Below are positions 28,987 through 33,421 of a stretch of 64,000 nt of DNA, piece after piece. Source of the DNA: Ochrobactrum sp. CGA5 (GTDB lineage: Bacteria; Pseudomonadota; Alphaproteobacteria; Rhizobiales; Rhizobiaceae); contig NZ_VCIG01000043.1 in NCBI RefSeq assembly GCF_006345815.1, positions 277,499 to 341,498 on the forward strand. Direction: 5' to 3'. The notes below the pieces were generated by a model. It was not told where the DNA came from. It ran no database searches and saw nothing but the letters and a program-made list of their open reading frames with translations. The position numbers and the translations under genes are program-made. Every line of letters starts with the position of its first letter. Position 1 is the stretch's first letter.

Positions 28987-29787
28987 ATGACAGATCCTGT
29001 TCTGGCTGCTCTCGATTTGCCCGATGCACTACGTCAACGGCTCACGGGTTACAGCAGCCAGCAGGATGAACTTGGCCGTTCGTCAGCCAATGTGTTTCTG
29101 CTCGATCATGATACGCGCGAACCGCTCGTTCTGAAAATCGAACCAGCAAGTACCGTCAGCGAACTTGCCGGGGAATGCGCCCGGCTCGAGTGGCTCGCAA
29201 AGCAGGGACTGCCGTGCCCCAAGATCGTTGCTTACGAAACGCAGACCGACCGGCATTTTCTTTTGATGACACGGCTTGCCGGGGCAGATCTCGCTTCGTC
29301 TGTCGGCGATCTCCCGGCAGCCAGAATTGTCTCCATTCTTGCGGTAGCCTTGAAGACGCTGCACAGCGTCGATCCCGCCGCCTGTCCCTTCAACCACCGG
29401 CTGGACCGTCGCATTGACGACGCCCGCACGCGGGTCGAAGCCGGTGCCGTCGATGAAGATGATTTCGATGCCGAGCGCGAAGGTAGCAGCGCCGAAGACC
29501 TTTTCTGCGAACTTTACCGCCTGAAACCATTGCAGGAAGATTTAGTCGTCACCCACGGCGATGCTTGCCTGCCAAATTTCATGGCCAACGACAACACATT
29601 CACCGGCTTTATTGATTGCGGCAGGCTCGGCCTTGCAGACCGCCATCAGGATCTCGCACTGGCGTGCTGGAGCATTCGCCATAATCTGGGCGAGGAATGG
29701 GTGCAGCCATTTATCGGTATTTATGGCGGTCCCGCAATCGACGATGCGAAGATTGCCTACTACCGTTTGCTGGACGAGTTTTTCTAA
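28987..29787 (+). CDS. APH(3')-type aminoglycoside phosphotransferase
   Basis: 266 residues, the usual APH(3') length. Catalytic loop [12 protein letters not shown] (Asp192, Asn197) and metal site [17 protein letters not shown] (Asp210) match the APH(3') family closely; ATP-site LVLKIEP holds the conserved Lys. It would phosphorylate the 3'-OH of kanamycin/neomycin-like drugs. It lies 13 bases after prfC with AAGGTG before its ATG. Base use is like its neighbours and no mobile element is near, so it looks like an intrinsic gene; actual drug resistance is unproven. Confidence 0.87.
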
Positions 29788-30377: not shown

Positions 30378-31763
30378 TTACTTGTTTGCTTCGAGAAGGC
30401 GCTCGGCAATCTTCTCTGCCAGCTTCTCGGCCACTTCTTCCTTGCTCATTTCCGACCATTCCTCGATGCCGGTCCGGCTTAGAATGCGGACATGATTGCG
30501 GTCGCCGCCCATGACGCTGCTACCGTCCGGGGAATGCGAGACATCGTTTGCGACGATCCAGTCCGCGCCTTTCTTCTCAAGCTTGCGCTGCGCGTTTTCG
30601 GCCACGTTCTGCGTTTCTGCCGCAAAACCAACGACGAGGCCGGGCCGCTTGTCGCTATGGCCGACACCGGCCAGAATGTCGGGATTCTCGACCATGGCAA
30701 GCGTCGGAGCGCTTTCACCGGGTTTCTTCTTGATCTTCTGCCCAGCCTCGCTGGCCGTGCGCCAATCAGCAACGGCAGCAACCATAATCGCCGCATCAGC
30801 GGGAAGATGCCGCTCCACAGCAGCCTGCATTTCGCGCGCCGTCTCGACGTGGATCACGTCCACGCCTTCAGGGTCGGGAATGGCGACCGGGCCGGACACC
30901 AGATGCACCTTAGCACCAAGCCGCGCGAGTGCTGCGGCGATAGCGTGGCCCTGCTTGCCCGACGAACGATTGGCGATATAGCGCACCGGATCAATTGGCT
31001 CGTGCGTGGGGCCGGAAGTCATGACAATGGTTTTGCCGACAAGCGACCTTGCTTGCGGCGCCAGCAGGCTTTCGATTGTAGCGACTATTGCCAGCGGCTC
31101 GCTCATGCGTCCTATTCCCGCCTCGCCGCTTTCCGCCATCTCGCCCCTCTCCGGGCCGATGAAGCGAACGCCGTCTTTTTCGAGCGTCAAGCGGTTGCGT
31201 CTCGTCGCGGGATTGTCCCACATGGCCGGATTCATCGCAGGCGCAACAAGGACTGGAACTTTGCGGGCCAGCAGCACCGCACTGGCCAGATCATCGGCAA
31301 GCCCGTTCGCCATCTTGGCCATCAGGTCAGCGGTCGCAGGTGCGACAACGATCAGGTCAGCATCGCGGGCAAGCCGGATATGCCCGACATCCTGTTCGTC
31401 CTCGCGCGAGAACAGATCGGTGAAGACACGATCAGCCGAAACCGCGCCAATAGTCAATGCTGTCACGAATTGCTGCGCCGCCGCCGTCATCAAGGGACGC
31501 ACATGCGCGCCACGCTCACGCAACCGGCGAATGAGATCCGGTGTCTTATAGGCAGCAATGCCACCGCCAATAATGAGAAGAATGCGTTTTCCAGCCAGTG
31601 AAGCCACGCCAGCGGGAGACACCGCGGCAGCCTGTGGAGCTGCATCTTGCCCGGCCAGCAGAATGCGCGCTTCCTCTTCCATGGAACGCCCGTTTTGCGC
31701 TGCCCTGATGCGCAGCCGTTCCTTGGCGGCATCATCGAGATTACGAATGGTGAGACTGGCCAT
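30378..31763 (-). CDS. coaBC: Bifunctional CoaBC with N-terminal FitA-like ribbon-helix-helix domain
   Basis: 461 residues from the ATG at 31763. Residues 1-38 (MASLTIRNLDDAAKERLRI, then RAAQNGRSMEEEARILL) match FitA/Arc-type DNA-binding antitoxins. A 20-residue Ala-rich linker follows, then the CoaC flavoprotein domain (GKRILLIIGGGIAAYK, VAPATADLMAKMANG, PAMNPAMWDNP) and the CoaB ligase domain from about residue 247 (MTSGPTHEPIDPVRYIAN). It converts phosphopantothenate and cysteine to phosphopantetheine. In-frame ATGs at 31796 and 31805 would put the upstream palindrome into the coding region. Third gene after ubiE and ubiB. The fused domain is the unusual feature. Confidence 0.93.
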   Translation of the reverse strand: MASLTIRNLDDAAKERLRIRAAQNGRSMEEEARILLAGQDAAPQAAAVSPAGVASLAGKRILLIIGGGIAAYKTPDLIRRLRERGAHVRPLMTAAAQQFVTALTIGAVSADRVFTDLFSREDEQDVGHIRLARDADLIVVAPATADLMAKMANGLADDLASAVLLARKVPVLVAPAMNPAMWDNPATRRNRLTLEKDGVRFIGPERGEMAESGEAGIGRMSEPLAIVATIESLLAPQARSLVGKTIVMTSGPTHEPIDPVRYIANRSSGKQGHAIAAALARLGAKVHLVSGPVAIPDPEGVDVIHVETAREMQAAVERHLPADAAIMVAAVADWRTASEAGQKIKKKPGESAPTLAMVENPDILAGVGHSDKRPGLVVGFAAETQNVAENAQRKLEKKGADWIVANDVSHSPDGSSVMGGDRNHVRILSRTGIEEWSEMSKEEVAEKLAEKIAERLLEANK

Positions 31764-31764
31764 T

Positions 31765-31795
31765 TGATTGCACTCGCTCGTTACAAGTGCAATCA
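31765..31795. promoter_or_regulatory. Perfect inverted repeat immediately upstream of coaBC, candidate operator
   Basis: TGATTGCACT (31765-31774), 11-base spacer, AGTGCAATCA (31786-31795). It ends one base before the coaBC ATG. The arrangement resembles the inverted repeats bound by FitA-type ribbon-helix-helix proteins, and the gene itself begins with such a domain. It could also act as an mRNA hairpin covering the ribosome site. Confidence 0.55.
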
Positions 31796-31837
31796 TTGAA
31801 ATCACTTTAAAGGGTGGATGTCACCTCAAAAGTGACT

Positions 31838-33421
31838 TTACAGCCAAATATAAAGCTTCGCCGCGATCGCTGCGAGCGAGATCGCAATCACGATCTGTGC
31901 AATGCGCCCCCAACGCGAGTGGCGTGCCTCGGCCCGACCGATAGCTTCAGCCGTCGCTTCGTCAAAGCGCAGGCCATTTGCAGCCATGTCATCCAGCGCA
32001 ACCGACACACGCTCCACGCGCGCCACAAGTTCCGGCGTCTTGCGCGTGAAATGCAGCAGCGAGTAAGCGCTGTCCTTTGCGTCGATAAGCATGCCTTGCG
32101 GCCCGAGATTCTTGCGTATCCAATCGCCGACGACTGGTTCCGCCGCTTTCCACATATTGAAATGCGGATCAAGCGTACGCGACACGCCTTCCACGACAAC
32201 CATGGTTTTCTGGAGCATCAGCAGTTCTGGCCGGGTCTCCATATCGAAGAGCTCTGTCACTTCAAACAACAGCGTCAGAAGCTTGGCCATGGAAATGGTT
32301 TCGGCAGGCTGGCCGTGGATCGGTTCGCCAATGGCGCGTATAGCCTGCGCAAAGCTTGCCACATCATGCGTGTGCGGCACGTAACCGGCTTCGAAATGCA
32401 CTTCCGCCACGCGCATGTAATCGCGCGTGATAAAGCCATAGAGAATTTCGGCAAGGAAGCGGCGCTGCTGCTTGTTGAGGCGCCCGGTAATACCGAAATC
32501 AACCGCCACAATCAGCCCTTGATGATCCACGAACAGATTGCCCGGATGCATATCGGCATGGAAAAAGCCGTCACGCAACGTATGGCGCAAGAAGGACTGG
32601 ATCAGCGTTTCAGCCAACTTCTTGAGATTGAAACCCGCAGCCTCAAGCGCGGAAATATCCGACATCTTGATGCCGTCGATCCATTCAAGCGTCAGCACAT
32701 CGCGGCCTGTACGCTCCCAATCAACATTGGGAACGCGAAAACCCGCATCGTCCTTGATGTTCTCCGCGATCTCGGAAAGTGCTGCCGCTTCCAGACGCAG
32801 ATCCATCTCGATGCGAGTAGTCTGCTGCAGCGTCTCTACAACCTGAACCGGGCGCAGACGGCGCGTGAATGGAACGTGGCGCTCCTGCATGCGCGCAACC
32901 ATGTAGAAACCTTCAAGGTCGCGGGCAAAACGCTGGCGCACGCCCGGACGGATAACCTTGACGGCAACCTTCTGGCGCACGCCGTCCTTCATGACTTCCG
33001 CCGGATGCACCTGTGCCATCGACGCCGCCGCTATCGGCGCATCGAAATGCAGGTAAAGATCATCAATCTTGCGGCCAAGCGAACCTTCGATAGCGGCAAC
33101 CGCGTCGGCCTGCGGGAAAAAGTCGAGCCTGTCCTGCAAGAGTTCGAGATCGGCAGCGACATCGCGACCAACAATATCAGGCCGCGTCGCCAGAAACTGG
33201 CCAAGCTTCACATAGGAAGGACCAAGCTTGTTCATGGCGCGCGACATGCGCTCCGAACGTTGCATATGCCGCGCCCGCGGACGCGCCAGCATGCCCGCAA
33301 TCTTATGCCCGAAAGCAGGAAGACCGGAAAGCCCCTCCACCGGAAGTGCGCTGATGACACCCTCGCGCGTCAATATCCATCCGGCCCGCATCAGCCGAAA
33401 AGCAGCGGATAGGTTGCTCAT
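31838..33421 (-). CDS. ubiB: Ubiquinone biosynthesis kinase-like protein UbiB
   Basis: 527 residues. ABC1/ADCK motifs: KLGQFLATRPDIVG (KxGQ), the Ala-rich nucleotide loop AAASMAQVHPAEV, FHADMHPGNLFVDH and VDFGITGRL. One or two membrane helices close the C-terminus (IVIAISLAAIAAKLYIWL). It is an atypical kinase/ATPase needed for aerobic ubiquinone synthesis. It follows ubiE by 43 bases on the minus strand and precedes coaBC by 74 bases. Confidence 0.95.
   Translation of the reverse strand: MSNLSAAFRLMRAGWILTREGVISALPVEGLSGLPAFGHKIAGMLARPRARHMQRSERMSRAMNKLGPSYVKLGQFLATRPDIVGRDVAADLELLQDRLDFFPQADAVAAIEGSLGRKIDDLYLHFDAPIAAASMAQVHPAEVMKDGVRQKVAVKVIRPGVRQRFARDLEGFYMVARMQERHVPFTRRLRPVQVVETLQQTTRIEMDLRLEAAALSEIAENIKDDAGFRVPNVDWERTGRDVLTLEWIDGIKMSDISALEAAGFNLKKLAETLIQSFLRHTLRDGFFHADMHPGNLFVDHQGLIVAVDFGITGRLNKQQRRFLAEILYGFITRDYMRVAEVHFEAGYVPHTHDVASFAQAIRAIGEPIHGQPAETISMAKLLTLLFEVTELFDMETRPELLMLQKTMVVVEGVSRTLDPHFNMWKAAEPVVGDWIRKNLGPQGMLIDAKDSAYSLLHFTRKTPELVARVERVSVALDDMAANGLRFDEATAEAIGRAEARHSRWGRIAQIVIAISLAAIAAKLYIWL

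Follow-up and report, generated by a model that had tools for sequence, protein, structure and literature searches.

The coaBC gene and its N-terminal domain

The window analysed here is a stretch of 64,000 nt from Ochrobactrum sp. CGA5 (contig NZ_VCIG01000043.1, positions 277,499 to 341,498). It carries a coaBC gene of the coenzyme A (CoA) pathway, the product of which begins with a FitA-like ribbon-helix-helix (RHH) domain, and a set of putative operator subsites lies between this gene and ubiB (Table 1). The protein is identified as CoaBC by the TIGR00521 equivalog model (E 1.5e-121; 406.2 bits against a cut-off of 219.7), and both enzyme domains are present. The original prediction, made without database searches, had read residues 1–38 as a complete RHH antitoxin domain closely resembling gonococcal FitA. 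Both parts of that claim were confirmed: the PF22513 (FitA-like_RHH) model matches residues 2–37 (E 2e-17; 63.3 bits against a curated cut-off of 27), and the solved structures closest by sequence are the FitA chains 2h1o and 2bsq (E 0.0014–0.0017, 2h1o having the value of 0.0014). A PF22513 search of the same genome gave no match besides CoaBC.

The RHH domain is as constrained as the enzyme to which it is attached. Among 31 genomes of the genus, the mean ratio of non-synonymous to synonymous substitution rates (dN/dS) was 0.05 for the RHH (residues 1–38), 0.05 for CoaC, 0.066 for CoaB and 0.37 for the linker, the mean amino-acid identity of which falls to 33%. Judged by its codons, the RHH region is translated and under purifying selection. 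It had been allowed that the RHH might prove decayed in relatives, or that translation might begin only downstream, at the GKRILL region; a dN/dS of 0.05 argues against both, and a start at GKRILL is ruled out because the RHH codons share the constraint of the enzyme. In the upstream direction the open reading frame (ORF) extends as far as a GTG (31805), and only 9 of the 31 genus copies have an earlier ATG in frame; the conserved protein begins at MAS, and a start at the upstream GTG or ATG is not favoured. Three genomes of the genus (G375, G380 and G381) carry coaBC as two overlapping or adjacent pieces, possibly sequence errors. These broken frames were excluded from the codon and alignment work, and the three genomes are counted among the 35 genus genomes considered below.

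Five residues of the domain (T5, R7, S27, E29 and R33) are invariant across 34 aligned RHHs, taken from fused proteins and antitoxins. A paper on AmrZ (PMC3325190) describes one position of the DNA-binding strand as usually neutral and hydrophilic, with FitA, which has valine, as the exception. A threonine of CoaBC aligns opposite a FitA valine, and on our own reading this pair may be that position. An AlphaFold2 model (24-sequence alignment; mean predicted local distance difference test score, pLDDT, 79.6; predicted template modelling score 0.50) is mostly confident in the enzyme part, with some weak stretches in CoaB. It places helices at residues 11–24 and 28–39 and shows a disordered linker, with pLDDT below 50 at residues 40–53. 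The RHH strand is unpaired in this single-chain model; in RHH proteins the strand pairs between two chains.

The solved CoaBC structure 6tgv, which we take to be mycobacterial, shares both enzyme domains with the window protein and aligns by sequence to residues 57–454 only, so the RHH and linker are extra. CoaC is a flavin-using enzyme. At about residues 205–220 of the window protein, within CoaC, the stretch GEMAESGEAGIGRM has no cysteine, and 6tgv also lacks one there; a cysteine at the matching position is known from other CoaC enzymes.

Table 1. Features of the coaBC locus, in coordinates of the window
Feature	Position	Strand	Remarks
coaBC gene with N-terminal RHH	30378..31763	minus	461 aa; ATG at 31763 (MASLTI)
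FitA-like RHH domain, residues 1–38	31650..31763	minus	PF22513, FitA match, dN/dS, predicted helices
Linker, residues 39–55	31599..31649	minus	variable and predicted disordered; occupies the place of the antitoxin's toxin-binding tail; dN/dS 0.37
CoaC flavoprotein domain, residues 59–232	31068..31589	minus	PF02441, E 3.1e-32
CoaB (DFP) ligase domain, residues 242–427	30483..31040	minus	PF04127, E 1.4e-69
Perfect 10-bp inverted repeat, TGATTGCACT-N11-AGTGCAATCA	31765–31774 / 31786–31795	n/a	ends one base before the ATG
Putative operator subsite 1, TGATTTCA (gene strand)	31797..31804	minus	9 bp from subsite 2; columns 28–31/31
Putative operator subsite 2, TGATTGCA (gene strand)	31788..31795	minus	conserved in the genus
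Putative operator subsite 3, TGCAATCA (gene strand)	31765..31772	minus	one base before the ATG, in ribosome-binding-site position; columns 31/31
74-bp gap from ubiB stop to coaBC ATG, containing the array	31764..31837	minus	

The upstream neighbours of coaBC on the same strand are ubiE and ubiB (the latter matching TIGR01982, E 7.5e-171). Elsewhere in the window, adjoining prfC, a 266-aa ORF at 28987–29787 encodes an aminoglycoside phosphotransferase of the APH(3')-II family (387 bits; cut-off 360).

The putative operator array and its distribution among relatives

The perfect inverted repeat that the original prediction had placed at 31765–31795 is there as described, and it is the sole match in the 4.6-Mb genome even when three mismatches are allowed. 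The columns of TGATTTCA-n-TGATTGCA are kept in 28–31 of the 31 genus genomes and those of GTGCAATCA in all 31, and the stretch between them varies. Of 35 genus genomes, 32 contain the pattern TGATTGCA-N9..19-GTGCAATCA exactly once, in each case at the start of coaBC, and no further match was obtained. Because the arms are near-invariant, the loop varies and the pattern is found once only, at coaBC, in these 32 genomes, the repeat is not a chance arrangement. The three genomes without the pattern are G390, where the left half-site reads TGATTGCG; G381, which is 69% complete, has a broken coaBC and gave no RHH; and G016, which has lost the RHH and has a 30-bp gap with neither RHH nor operator, holding GAGAGG before a normal CoaBC start.

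The repeat itself is real, but its description as one simple palindrome had to be replaced, since the site belongs to an array of TGNNNNCA subsites at a 9-bp step, three of which lie before the window's gene. No Shine-Dalgarno-like 4-mer precedes the ATG in any of the 31 genus copies; the last subsite sits there instead. A looser pattern (8-bp arms, 5–30 bp apart) gives two extra matches in the CGA5 genome, both within long ORFs, and a multi-gene regulon for the full palindrome is unsupported, looser sites not having been surveyed genome-wide. A second, imperfect 15-bp inverted repeat (80%) lies at 31799–31838, between the operator and the ubiB stop.

Relatives were compared in a family sample of 81 genomes, representing 80 genera and giving 80 loci (G043 has no locus, and G031 and G077 no usable upstream sequence), in an order-wide sample of 297 genomes, and in 80 named loci, which are the best 80 of a longer scan rather than a survey and come from genomes partly shared with the other samples. 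Three main states of the locus were found. In the family sample 23 coaBC genes are fused to an RHH, 17 have an antitoxin and PIN toxin pair directly 5′ of coaBC (one of these, G024, keeps a PIN remnant only), one has an RHH alone (G027), and 39 are bare, with neither (37 assessable). All four toxins tested beside antitoxins carry the PF01850 PIN domain. A PIN gene within 900 nt upstream was not detected for any of the 23 fused genes, the window's gene included.

A FitA-like RHH scoring E 1e-6 or lower was detected in at least 72 of the 297 order-wide genomes. In at least 16 of these it is fused to CoaBC, and in at least seven it ends 548–580 nt before the CoaBC match, a PIN gene being present in 7/7 of those loci. 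The position ahead of coaBC is a recurrent home of antitoxin-toxin modules in families f1, f16 and f34, and CoaBC-RHH fusions are found in families f1, f16 and f35. Within the best-80 scan, the fusion is seen in named Phyllobacterium, Mesorhizobium, Zhengella, Nitratireductor and Bartonella, and modules are seen in Mesorhizobium sp. STM 4661 and M. xinjiangense, among others. The returned records of Rhizobium, Ensifer, Sinorhizobium and Agrobacterium carry a bare coaBC, and so do two Mesorhizobium records (L157 and L222). All three states are found among the named Mesorhizobium records. The PF22513-CoaBC architecture is already visible in databases, since at least 120 of the 129 proteins retrieved carry PF22513 with both CoaBC domains; where named, they are called CoaBC or a phosphopantothenate enzyme.

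Exact half-sites, TGA[CT][AT]GCA, were scored in the 110 bp upstream, and the looser array was defined as TGNNNNCA-N-TGNNNNCA at a 9-bp step. In the family sample, half-sites precede 22/23 fused genes and 11/17 antitoxin-toxin loci, against 0/1 with RHH alone and 0/37 bare loci; shuffled controls gave means of 0 to 0.08 per locus. Among loci fetched after the motif had been defined, a half-site precedes all nine fused genes of f35 and, in the family sample, 10 of 11 fused genes. The named loci gave 26/29 fused, 6/8 antitoxin-toxin (one of the eight a remnant) and 1/43 bare; of 20 additional bare loci from outside the family sample one has a half-site, and of five additional antitoxin-toxin loci (f16 and f34) four have one.

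The array follows the same distribution. It is found before 17/23 fused genes of the family sample and 13/17 loci with an intact or remnant antitoxin-toxin pair, but before none of the 37 assessable bare genes. Counts elsewhere are 28/30 for further genes of the genus, 8/9 for fused genes of f35, 3/5 for the further f16 and f34 modules and, for the named loci, 25/29 fused, 6/8 antitoxin-toxin and 0/43 bare. Before coaBC genes without an RHH it was absent throughout (0/37, 0/43 and 0/20 loci), and control steps of 8, 10, 11 and 12 bp gave at most one locus per group. Spacing between subsites is mainly 9, 18 and 27 bp in antitoxin-toxin loci, versus 9, 22–23 and 31–33 bp in fused genes. On a tree of CoaBC sequences, seven independent pairs differ in the RHH, and the half-sites are concordant in about six and opposite in none (median p 0.03). 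By these counts, array and RHH are present or absent together across most relatives. As for whether the palindrome is conserved only where the fusion exists, palindrome and array are absent, with rare exceptions, before RHH-less coaBC; the array also precedes antitoxin-toxin pairs.

Origin of the fusion

The fusion is best read from these sequences as a coaBC-linked FitAB/VapBC module minus its toxin and toxin-binding tail, with the DNA-binding domain and putative operator kept. A single profile made from 19 of the 21 antitoxin tails recognises 20/21 of them, versus 1/67 fused linkers (E <0.01). By this profile and threshold, the window's linker has no recognisable toxin-binding tail. The sole fused linker that matches (E 2e-5) is that of L037, in which an antitoxin tail is kept and followed by the CoaBC start. 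The flanks of L037 are 92% and 94% identical to those of a module-bearing Mesorhizobium locus, L215, and its RHH start aligns with the first of two antitoxin ORFs there; 774 bp of L215, holding the second antitoxin and the PIN gene, correspond to 100 bp in L037, from which the PIN gene is missing. Modules are partly lost in G024, G027 and the Pseudaminobacter locus L184. The scar in L037 relative to L215, together with these module remnants, suggests that the toxin was lost before an in-frame fusion.

In a starred clade of genus g73, the nearest named relatives of which are Mesorhizobium, a single antitoxin-toxin locus sits among four fused ones. Over the whole CoaBC tree the fused state needs 16 changes, at least six of them forced by starred branches.

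Some variants of the locus stand apart. Two tandem antitoxin-like RHH ORFs, then one PIN toxin gene, then coaBC, are found in L180, L215 and L021 (Mesorhizobium and genus g73). Two kinds of PIN toxin, identified with separate queries, occupy the same spot beside similar RHH antitoxins (L014 and L021 versus L017, L025, L029 and L033), as if modules had been exchanged. In L135 (G005) a single open frame of 837 aa holds both the RHH and the CoaBC pieces, with additional sequence separating them.

Proposed autoregulation and rival explanations

The FitA-like RHH domain fused to the N-terminus of CoaBC likely represses its own gene through the TGNNNNCA array that ends one base before the start codon; from the sequence comparisons we put the probability of this at about three in four. 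A FitAB/VapBC module upstream of coaBC would have lost its toxin and then been fused in frame. RHH dimers, tethered by the disordered linker to the oligomeric enzyme, would occupy the array in the gap after ubiB and block the promoter or start region, down-regulating coaBC; the level of CoaBC would thereby set coaBC expression. The likely outcome, by analogy, is an autoregulated enzyme that works like PutA. A ligand or redox signal that relieves binding to the array is possible. The original prediction had proposed that the enzyme may bind its own operator, perhaps sensing phosphopantothenate, cytidine triphosphate (CTP) or flavin state; its fusion and operator pass the sequence tests, but it missed the toxin-antitoxin modules that lie before coaBC in many relatives. 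A more elaborate proposal is tentative, and we consider it doubtful: CoaBC of these bacteria, an oligomeric flavoenzyme, would be a self-sensing CoA homeostat, in which captured RHH dimers bridge the three subsites with a grip on the promoter tuned by substrate, CTP, flavin or CoA state, built several times by toxin deletion from modules that recurrently settle before coaBC.

Several points weigh against autorepression through the array. The half-site motif was defined on sequences already seen, and the array pattern later still. Among antitoxin-toxin loci fetched after the motif was defined, only 2/8 have a half-site (it is missing in 6/8), and the exact half-site is also missing in 3/29 named fused genes, all of Bartonella, although a degenerate TGNNNNCA pair is still visible by eye in two of these three. 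Restricting the tree comparison to fused-versus-bare pairs leaves five pairs, which cannot reach 0.05 (p 0.06). The CoaBC tree is a quick one of poor resolution, with 48 of its 101 inner branches open (L135, L136 and L147 excluded), and change counts on it do not distinguish gains from losses. In G016, which shows the clearest loss within the genus, RHH and operator disappeared together, and this case therefore gives no evidence of independent decay. The missing Shine-Dalgarno-like 4-mer says little, because only 11/39 bare coaBC genes have one. The RHH could alternatively serve oligomerisation.

That the RHH and palindrome are functionless relics, tolerated after the loss of a toxin-antitoxin module, is unlikely: such modules do occupy the same spot in relatives, where stages of toxin loss can be seen (G024, G027 and L184), but the RHH is as constrained as CoaC while the linker drifts, the operator arms are near-invariant while the loop drifts, and fusion and array persist in distant families. 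The membership of the domain in an antitoxin family, and the PIN genes adjoining related RHHs, would also fit an RHH kept to neutralise a PIN toxin encoded elsewhere, or for dimerisation or CoaBC assembly, with the DNA site secondary. We regard this as similarly improbable, given that the tail profile recognises nearly all antitoxin tails and a single fused linker, that no PIN gene was detected in the 900 nt upstream of any fused gene of the family sample, that the key RHH residues are conserved and that within the genus the operator occurs at coaBC alone. On this evidence the window protein no longer looks like a working antitoxin.

A perfect inverted repeat at a start codon that lacks a Shine-Dalgarno-like 4-mer in all 31 genus copies might instead form an RNA hairpin for translational control. 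This is very unlikely: at many other loci the subsites are direct repeats or occur in several copies at the 9-bp step, an arrangement that does not suit a hairpin, and subsites also precede antitoxin genes and go with the RHH. The survey of RHHs covered the PF22513 family only, which leaves room for a different cellular regulator that binds the array while the RHH of CoaBC does something else; there is very little to be said for such a regulator, since CoaBC is the only PF22513 match in its own genome and the array is absent before RHH-less coaBC genes in all three sets of loci.

The nearest functional parallel is trifunctional (type C) PutA, a proline utilisation flavoenzyme whose N-terminal RHH makes it an autogenous repressor (PMC5293562). 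The two proteins share an N-terminal RHH on a flavin-dependent metabolic enzyme, but the window protein is not a PutA, having CoaBC domains instead of proline and pyrroline-5-carboxylate dehydrogenase domains. CoaBC also differs in being anabolic and probably essential, in an RHH of FitA antitoxin type with evident toxin-antitoxin kinship, in an operator that, within the genus, occurs at no other gene, and in having no known membrane or ligand switch. Like FitAB/VapBC systems, fused CoaBC has a PF22513 RHH and repeated half-sites in its own upstream region, with modules at the same place in relatives; unlike them, it has no toxin partner next door and no recognisable toxin-binding tail, and its RHH is carried on a housekeeping enzyme. 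BirA and NadR are trigger enzymes of cofactor metabolism that regulate genes through a DNA-binding domain of the helix-turn-helix type, whereas CoaBC has an antitoxin RHH and no known effector. Within the limited literature collection searched, no paper joining CoaBC with an RHH or an antitoxin was found, and the terms dfp, coaBC and phosphopanto were not found in the excerpts of the literature on the Sinorhizobium meliloti ntrPR module.

If repression through the array is correct, CoaBC would be a further example, beside PutA, of a self-repressing RHH flavoenzyme, placed on the CoA pathway. It would also mark a route from a toxin-antitoxin module to a housekeeping regulator, in which the toxin is lost and the gene next door takes over the DNA-binding domain and operator. 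Since fused, module-bearing and bare loci all occur among named Mesorhizobium, each step of this route is testable in close relatives, and coaBC annotations in this order would be predicted to hide a regulator.
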